Below are positions 1 through 1,864 of a DNA stretch of 64,000 nucleotides, one piece after another (position 1 is the first letter of the stretch; every line of letters starts with the position of its first letter). Below the pieces are notes generated by a model, which was given only the letters and a program-made list of their open reading frames with translations, ran no database searches and was not told the DNA's origin. A program made the position numbers and the translations under genes. The stretch comes from Teretinema zuelzerae (GTDB lineage: Bacteria; Spirochaetota; Spirochaetia; Treponematales; Treponemataceae), in NCBI RefSeq assembly GCF_021021555.1, contig NZ_JAINWA010000003.1, positions 1-64,000 of the forward strand, written 5' to 3'.

Positions 1-984
1 GAGCTCGGCTCCCTTCTGATTCGTGAATGTGGACGATCCGGTGAAGTTCATCGCGATGTAGGCCGCGGCCGCGCCCGATAACAGAACGGCGGCCGTCGTC
101 GGAACGGCGTGGAAGGTTTCGGCGAGCCGCGGGCTGCCCATGCCGCCGGGCGATGAAAACGCGCAGAGGGCAGCCGCTGCTGTCGTCGCCGCGAAGGGGG
201 CGAGCGAACGTACCGAGAAAAAGCGGCCGGGAAGCCAGGGCAGGAGCAGCGGAACCCCGGCGGCTCCCGCGGCGAGAGAGGCGGCGAGATACGCCGCATA
301 CGCTCCATAGCGCGCGCCGTACAGCGGATCGAAGGGCAGGGCGAGGGCGAGGGGAACGATAAGCGACGCGAGAAACAACGGCCGGGCATGGACCAGCTCG
401 ATGGGAATCAGCACCGCGCGATCCGCAAGAGTGAAATCAACCGTACTCATGCCGGCGGTTTTTCTCATTCCCGCTTCCAGATACGGTTTGATGTCTCGCG
501 CGCGGACGGGTCCGAACAGAACCTTTCTGCCGGTCGCCCGGCGCAGTTCGTTCGCGTCGACTCCGCTCGCGGAAAGCTGGGGGAGTATCAGCGGAGCCTT
601 CGGCGCGGCCGCGTCCAATCCGCAAAGCCGCGCTCTTCGCGCGATTTCCCCGGCGCAGAACGTTCCCTTTCCCGCGGCGCACCACACGTTCACGCCCTTC
701 GTGTCGATCGCCATAATCCACGCATTTACGCCCGAGAGTTCCTTTCTGAGCGCGTCGAACGAGAGCCGATAGTTCGACGTCACGAGAACCGGCGAATTCG
801 GGTCGGGCTTTCCTGCAAAGTACAGTCCTGGTCCGATGGCGGCTTTATTCCGTCCGATTCCGAGCCTGAGTCGAGCCGCCGCGAGCCTGTCCCCGATCGA
901 CAGCTTCGACGAGACGGCGCGCGCGGGAATCGCGGCCTTCATCGCCGGCGAACCCTGCCGGGCGGAGATTACCCGGCGCAGCAT
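1..984 (-). CDS. hgcA: HgcA, mercury-methylation corrinoid protein (C-terminal end cut by window)
   Basis: Read on the minus strand, this open frame has 328 codons and runs off the left edge. Residues 99-106 read NVWCAAGK, matching the HgcA signature N(V/I)WCA(A/G)GK; Cys102 would be the cobalt ligand in the cap helix. The N-terminal half resembles the corrinoid domain of CODH/ACS proteins (GLYFAGKPDPNSPVLVTSNY, GPVRARDI). From about residue 200 it is a chain of hydrophobic segments, and it ends near MNFTGSSTFTNQKG, like the HgcA membrane domain. In the known family HgcA moves a methyl group to Hg(II) and is re-reduced by the ferredoxin HgcB. No HgcB is in view; it would be expected just beyond base 1. 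The ATG has an SD (GGGAG) and overlaps the end of marR by 16 nt, so translation is probably coupled. Activity is inferred, not shown. Confidence 0.93.
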   Translation of the reverse strand, partial: MLRRVISARQGSPAMKAAIPARAVSSKLSIGDRLAAARLRLGIGRNKAAIGPGLYFAGKPDPNSPVLVTSNYRLSFDALRKELSGVNAWIMAIDTKGVNVWCAAGKGTFCAGEIARRARLCGLDAAAPKAPLILPQLSASGVDANELRRATGRKVLFGPVRARDIKPYLEAGMRKTAGMSTVDFTLADRAVLIPIELVHARPLFLASLIVPLALALPFDPLYGARYGAYAAYLAASLAAGAAGVPLLLPWLPGRFFSVRSLAPFAATTAAAALCAFSSPGGMGSPRLAETFHAVPTTAAVLLSGAAAAYIAMNFTGSSTFTNQKGAEL

Positions 985-1454
985 GAGTCCGCTCCCTTCG
1001 CTTTTCCTGCTCCGCCTTCCGTCCGCTCCTCGGCCATGGCCGCTGCAATGAGGGCGACCGATTCGAGAACCGCTTCGTGCTTGTCCGCGGGGATTCGGGC
1101 GAACAGGGCCCGGTATTGTCCGTCGCATAATGCATGTATGTAATCGCACTTCCCGCGTCCCGTTCCGGTGAGAACGAGCGAGATTTTGCGGCGGCTCGTT
1201 TCGTCTTCGGTCCGCTCGGCCCATCCCTCGCGCACAAGGGAGTCGGCGGTCCGGCTCAGCGTGCTTTTGTCGAGGGCGAGCGCGTCGGCGAGATCCTGCA
1301 GGCTCGAAGGCCCGCGCTCTTCCATTTCCAGCATAAGATGGCACTGGGCGACGGTGACCGAACAGCAAGCCGTTTCGCCGGCGAGAAGCATTCCGGTTTC
1401 CCGTTCGAGCGAACGCATGGATTTCCGGAATCTTCTGATTGTTTGTTTGTTCAT
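969..1454 (-). CDS. MarR-family regulator, probable regulator of hgcA
   Basis: 161-residue winged-helix protein. The HTH and wing lie at about residues 50-100 (LQDLADALALDKSTLSR, then VREGWAERTEDETSRRKISL). It is unusually rich in cysteine: C30, C31 and C38 in the first helix region, and a C158-C159 pair close to the C-terminus. That layout suggests a thiol or metal(loid) sensor, which is inference. It lies directly upstream of hgcA and overlaps it by 16 nt, so the two are very likely cotranscribed and it probably controls both. Its own promoter contains a 12-bp direct repeat. No Shine-Dalgarno sequence precedes the ATG, which sits 6 nt after the putative -10 box, so the mRNA may be leaderless. 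Confidence 0.9.
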   Translation of the reverse strand: MNKQTIRRFRKSMRSLERETGMLLAGETACCSVTVAQCHLMLEMEERGPSSLQDLADALALDKSTLSRTADSLVREGWAERTEDETSRRKISLVLTGTGRGKCDYIHALCDGQYRALFARIPADKHEAVLESVALIAAAMAEERTEGGAGKAKGADSCCAG

Positions 1455-1489
1455 GCAATAGTTGTATTATGCAACAGTTGAATTGTCAA
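1453..1489 (-). promoter_or_regulatory. Promoter and putative operator of marR-hgcA
   Basis: On the minus strand there is a perfect -35 TTGACA (1489-1484), a 17-nt spacer and a weak -10 TACAAC (1466-1461), 6 nt before the marR ATG. CAACTGTTGCAT (1480-1469) and CAACTATTGCAT (1464-1453) form a direct repeat with a 16-bp period that covers the spacer, the -10 and the start codon. This is a good candidate for the MarR binding site. Binding itself is inference. Confidence 0.6.
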
Positions 1490-1519: not shown

Positions 1520-1864
1520 TCAAATTTCGACGTATACGCTACCGTCCTCGATTTCGACCGGAAGCAATTTCAGCCTCATCGAATCGATTCCTCTCGCAAT
1601 GATGTTGTTTCTGAAATCGTCTTTGATGTCGTTGACGTCGACTTCCCCGGTTTTCAGGCTGAATCGCAAACCGTGGCTGGGACACACCACGTATTCGTCC
1701 TCGTAATCCGCCCTGCGCAGATCTCCCTGGGCGTGGGGGCACTTCGCCGCGAATACGCAGATGGTTCTTTTATAGCAGTAGACGACGTACGGTTTTCCCT
1801 CGTGAGAAAACTCCGTGATGAAGTTATTGCGCACGTCGAATTCGCTTCCGACTAATACTTTCAT
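1520..1864 (-). CDS. Rieske-type [2Fe-2S] protein
   Basis: 114-residue protein consisting of one Rieske fold. The two cluster loops are CPHAQGDL (about residues 43-50) and CPSHGLRFSL (about 61-70), giving the Cys/His pairs that bind a [2Fe-2S] cluster. It resembles small soluble Rieske ferredoxins that pass electrons to oxygenases or reductases rather than the membrane bc1 subunit, since there is no N-terminal membrane helix. An SD (GGAAGG) precedes the ATG. It starts 15 nt after the stop of the gene at 1880-2554 and is probably cotranscribed with it. Its electron partner cannot be named from this window. Confidence 0.9.
   Translation of the reverse strand: MKVLVGSEFDVRNNFITEFSHEGKPYVVYCYKRTICVFAAKCPHAQGDLRRADYEDEYVVCPSHGLRFSLKTGEVDVNDIKDDFRNNIIARGIDSMRLKLLPVEIEDGSVYVEI

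Follow-up and report, generated by a model that had tools for sequence, protein, structure and literature searches.

In Pseudodesulfovibrio mercurii ND132 (cited in PMC10349881; biochemistry in PMC11588087), HgcA carries a conserved cysteine in its cap helix, hgcB lies next to hgcA, and a regulator gene is placed upstream in the same operon. HgcA is a membrane-bound corrinoid protein whose cap-helix cysteine ligates cobalt (function of the cysteine from PMC11588087); together with the ferredoxin HgcB it would pass a methyl group to Hg(II), giving methylmercury. The regulators known upstream of hgcA are ArsR proteins in desulfovibrios and AbrB/PrlF-like genes in archaea (PMC10349881), and PMC7438021 mentions an unnamed putative regulator with hgcA in 112 genomes. 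For Dethiobacter alkaliphilus and Geobacter daltonii, a single sentence in PMC10349881 places a MarR family gene upstream of hgcA, without giving a sequence, a cysteine motif, an operator or any association across the phylum. Spirochaete hgcAB pairs are already published, including two Treponemataceae genomes (PMC7536318, PMC7438021 and PMC7573106), and spirochaete-like sequences from the Baltic Sea are found in the first two of these sources.

The locus described here has in common with ND132 an HgcA with the cap-helix cysteine, an adjacent hgcB (seen here in relatives) and a regulator upstream in the same operon. It differs in its spirochaete host, in the position of hgcB outside the present assembly, and in the regulator, which in ND132 is ArsR-like and here belongs to the MarR family, has a CC..C motif and comes with an inverted-repeat site of its own. 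With the published spirochaete pairs it shares the phylum, probably the family, and the gene pair, while a MarR association and an operator are not described in the parts of PMC7536318 and PMC7438021 that we could draw on. Our reading, to which we give a probability of about 0.8 from sequence comparison, is that a marR-hgcA-hgcB operon begins here, in a spirochaete resembling treponemes, and that the MarR protein most likely represses it in a thiol-responsive manner.

The window, that is the whole stretch of 64,000 nucleotides that was analysed, begins at base 1 of contig C3 (1,989,004 bases), in an assembly of three contigs and 3.62 Mb that is 97% complete. Its features at the hgcA end are collected in the table.

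Table. Features of the marR-hgcA locus, in window coordinates
Feature	Position	Strand	Remarks	Basis
hgcA	1..984	-	Complete at the 5' end, truncated at the 3' end by the contig edge; 328 codons in the window, about 30 codons and the stop missing	NF040863 score, contig start, C-terminus compared with relatives
C-terminal membrane domain of HgcA, incomplete	1..414	-		Hydrophobic segments; alignment with complete relatives
Corrinoid-binding domain of HgcA (CdhD-like)	487..834	-	Residues 51-166	PF03599, 39 bits (cut-off 24.8)
Cap-helix motif NVWCAAGK	667..690	-	Residues 99-106; cobalt-ligand Cys102, codon 679-681	Alignment; Cys function from PMC11588087
marR, cysteine-rich MarR-family regulator	969..1454	-	First gene of the operon	Pfam PF01047; cysteine conservation; adjacency to hgcA across the phylum
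Shine-Dalgarno-like AAGGGAG, putative	992..998	-	Within the 3' end of marR, 7 nt before the hgcA ATG	Read from the sequence
Predicted operator, inverted repeat GTTGCATAATACAAC (minus strand)	1461..1475	.	6 nt upstream of the marR ATG	Sole exact genome match; conserved only upstream of MarR-linked hgcA loci
TTGACA, possible −35 element	1484..1489	-	Operator just downstream	Read from the sequence

The sequence-only reading had called positions 1-984 an HgcA gene of a spirochaete, and this identification holds. The open frame starts with an ATG at 984-982 on the minus strand and meets no stop as far as window base 1; since that base is also the first of its contig, the gene is cut before its stop codon. 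Although truncated, the product scores 305.2 bits against the NCBIfam HgcA equivalog NF040863 (curated cut-off 275 bits), over profile positions 3-297 of 325. It matches the HgcA cap-helix pattern N(V/I)WC(A/S)AGK, and the NFTGSST segment is found at residues 313-319 (window 28-48). An alignment of 54 HgcA proteins including this one has 49 columns with a conservation of 95% or more; the window protein carries the consensus residue at 47 of them, deviating only with M91 for L and R259 for K. The same alignment shows the relatives extending about 30-35 residues further, so that the window lacks the final membrane helix and the stop codon; of the roughly five helices expected in the membrane domain, hydrophobic segments are seen and the last helix is beyond the contig edge. 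As to the host, the genome encodes FlaA, the sheath protein of spirochaete flagella, in three copies; it was found in 0 of 14 control genomes.

AcsC, the corrinoid protein of CODH/ACS, occurs in Spirochaetota, the same phylum also carries a separate HgcA-like/HgcB-like pair that falls under the HgcA cut-off, and HgcA itself weakly matches the AcsC-type model. The window protein could on these grounds be an HgcA-like paralogue or a CODH/ACS corrinoid protein without mercury methylation, which we consider very improbable given its score above the equivalog cut-off and its place in the tree. In a maximum likelihood tree of 64 proteins, a check put forward in the sequence-only reading, it pairs with an HgcA of the same genus (support 100/99, 65% identity); AcsC forms a separate 100/100 branch with a length of 5.45 changes per site, and the HgcA-like group has its own fully supported branch. 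Identity as a CODH/ACS corrinoid protein was rejected on the NF040863 score and this separation of AcsC, and identity as a fused HgcAB-like protein was rejected because the score against NF043039 is far under that model's cut-off. No CdhD-type protein besides HgcA was found in the genome, and no CODH/ACS corrinoid protein was seen. Its absence is no argument against methylation, because the methyl donor used by HgcAB in vitro is S-adenosylmethionine (PMC11588087).

The HgcA-like protein, which scores under the HgcA cut-off and occupies a long branch of its own, was met in six Spirochaetota genomes (loci L120-L125, in G324, G373, G428, G421, G346 and G337), with the cap helix NVWC(A/S)(A/S)GKG where it was read. 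In the four of these loci whose neighbourhood was read (L120, L121, L123 and L124), the next gene encodes a small ferredoxin with two clusters, in which GTGC occurs and the C-terminus carries CC.

A search for hgcB, the gene of a ferredoxin with two CxxCxxCxxxC motifs, had been put forward as a check on hgcA, with absence from the genome counting against it. The search was made, and no protein exceeded the HgcB cut-off (best match 45.9 bits against 99), nor did the ends of all three contigs hold hgcB, the missing 3' end of hgcA or a joining piece. We rejected this result as evidence against function, and do not take it to refute HgcA, because the contig breaks inside hgcA and complete relatives have hgcB downstream; for the same reasons the missing gene is best read, from sequence, as an assembly gap. 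HgcB follows in every over-cut-off spirochaete hgcA locus that has downstream sequence, directly after hgcA except in two, where it is about 570 nt away. Two HgcB proteins of the genus, when run against the HgcB model, both scored above its cut-off.

The same facts could also mean that hgcA is a decaying remnant, ended by a real breakpoint and with hgcB gone. Such loss does occur in the genus, where one species has the MarR protein without detectable hgcA and another has an hgcA split by a frameshift, and hgcB is nowhere to be found in an assembly that is 97% complete. We nevertheless judge a remnant unlikely: the frame stays open right up to the contig edge, has lost none of the key residues and is cut by that edge rather than by a stop, the promoter region and operator are intact, and no other contig end bears hgcB or a joining partner. 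An hgcB lying in the assembly gap is the preferred reading.

Several observations concern gene ends and downstream genes in other loci. The split hgcA of the genus (G003, L032 6609-7855) is spread over two reading frames, through either a real mutation or a sequencing error. A contig scan with the window protein gave one relative, in a record from a Planctomycetaceae MAG (L018); there too the contig stops inside the gene, only a few codons from the corresponding point, which we treated as coincidence. In five relatives of the window hgcA clade (L029, L030, L031, L032 and L117) hgcB is followed by a gene of the C-GCAxxG-C-C family (TIGR01909), which may be a fourth gene of the operon, lost here in the gap. 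A gene of this family also follows a MarR in G373 (L106), with no adjoining hgcA.

The gene ahead of hgcA overlaps its start by 16 nt at the 3' end, making hgcA the second gene of the operon, and encodes a MarR winged helix-turn-helix domain (PF01047, 44.8 bits; cut-off 24.6). The solved MarR proteins 3e6m, 3s2w and YusO (1s3j) have this fold in common with it by sequence; in the two whose alignments extend over this part, 3s2w and 1s3j, residues other than cysteine stand at the CC and C positions. A fold predicted from the single sequence had a pLDDT of 48, too poor for use. Among 24 homologues, C30, C31 and C38 are present in all, C159 near the C-terminus in 22 and a further mid-protein cysteine in 18, and the relatives share the motif CC(G/S)(V/I)(T/S)xxQCH.

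The distribution of this protein was surveyed in Spirochaetota only, with a profile built from 15 sequences and matches counted at E 1e-20 or better. It was found in 25 of 393 genomes, and in 22 of those 25 it is directly upstream of hgcA. Half of the hgcA-positive genomes have it (23 of 46), compared with 2 of 347 hgcA-negative ones (Fisher p 2e-22, a guide only, as the genomes are not mutually independent). Within the genus, it is present in six of seven hgcA-positive genomes, the contig of the seventh (G008) ending at the hgcA start, and as an orphan in one of five hgcA-negative genomes. Within the family, eight genomes match strongly, at 186 bits or more, and the best of the remaining matches reaches 81 bits. 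Distances between HgcA proteins correlate with those between MarR proteins (Mantel r 0.56, with none of 5000 permutations as high). At other hgcA loci the upstream gene, as read from the sequences, is ArsR-like, AbrB/PrlF-like, an Acr3-like pump or something else. One genome of the genus (G010, 77% complete; L105 5282-5710) has an hgcA-type MarR without hgcA, followed by a gene on the other strand; it looks as if hgcAB were lost there and the regulator left behind.

MarR proteins are common and often control efflux, and three genomes (G373, G405 and G540) have matches away from hgcA, as would be expected if the protein were a general stress or drug regulator standing beside hgcA by chance. These three matches are weaker and do not have the CC..C motif, and strong matches occur almost only adjoining hgcA. 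A further point against a chance neighbour is that the exact form of the operator pattern, GTTGYATWNTRCAAC, occurs once in the 3.62 Mb genome, in the marR promoter. We thus regard this explanation as unlikely, and favour a regulator of hgcAB. In the genome scan only the exact match is telling, as at one mismatch a reversed control pattern gives as many hits.

Across genomes, GTTGYATWNTRCAAC with at most two mismatches was found upstream of marR in 19 of 25 regions, where dinucleotide shuffles predict 0.17, and in the 900 bases before hgcA it was found at 20 of the 27 loci linked to MarR and at 1 of the remaining 32. The lone unlinked locus with the operator, L047, has a divergent MarR; with this locus reassigned, the counts become 21 of 28 linked and 0 of 31 unlinked. 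These statistics are partly circular, since some of the sequences tested, mostly from the genus, had already been seen when the pattern was drawn up; the unlinked loci are a better control than the shuffles, and loci outside the genus also lessen the circularity. Six MarR-linked loci (L027, L028, L049, L110, L111 and L114) match the operator poorly, with 3-5 mismatches. A possible −10 element, TACAAC at 1461-1466, would fall within the operator. A consensus promoter scan proposes a different pair, at 1495-1466. Directly upstream of the marR promoter lies a gene for a small Rieske-type ferredoxin (window 1520-1864, minus strand).

In the literature searched, the sole counterpart to a cysteine-rich MarR with an operator before hgcA is the "MarR family" entry for the two bacteria of PMC10349881, a likeness at family level. 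The cysteine-rich MarR and its DNA site thus look to be the new part of the finding. HgcA itself belongs to an established family and, though new as a member, comes from a phylum where that family had been recorded before: it was detected over the cut-off in 46 of 393 sampled Spirochaetota genomes, and in 8 of 274 genomes of the family (seven over the cut-off and a further copy that is split), which belong to 2 of 20 genera. The suggestion that this host would widen the set of candidate methylators does not hold at the level of the phylum, where the host is no surprise because spirochaete hgcAB is established in the literature (PMC7536318, PMC7438021 and PMC7573106). In two species of the genus (L027 and L028) hgcA falls in the tree with another family of the order instead of with the genus itself, suggesting that it was transferred or replaced.

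The conserved cysteines, the gene order and the operator point to a thiol-sensing repressor dedicated to hgcAB. It would most likely repress its own gene: by binding the inverted repeat in the marR promoter it would keep marR-hgcAB off, and the binding of a soft metal or metalloid, or oxidation, at its cysteines would release it from the operator. Tentatively, and at rather less than even odds, the CC..C protein may be a dedicated sensor, with a ligand that serves hgcAB as its natural signal; this could be Hg(II), As(III), some other soft metal(loid) or a metabolite that reacts with thiols.

All forecasts of mercury in food webs are limited by the questions of which microbes produce methylmercury and what turns the genes on. 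The hgcA of this spirochaete adds a member to the known set. A MarR protein with a defined DNA site and conserved cysteines offers a concrete handle on how hgcAB is regulated, and one that is distinct from the ArsR proteins of desulfovibrios and from the AbrB/PrlF-like genes of archaea. If the protein is indeed such a dedicated sensor, the identity of its ligand would reveal the purpose of hgcAB in these bacteria.
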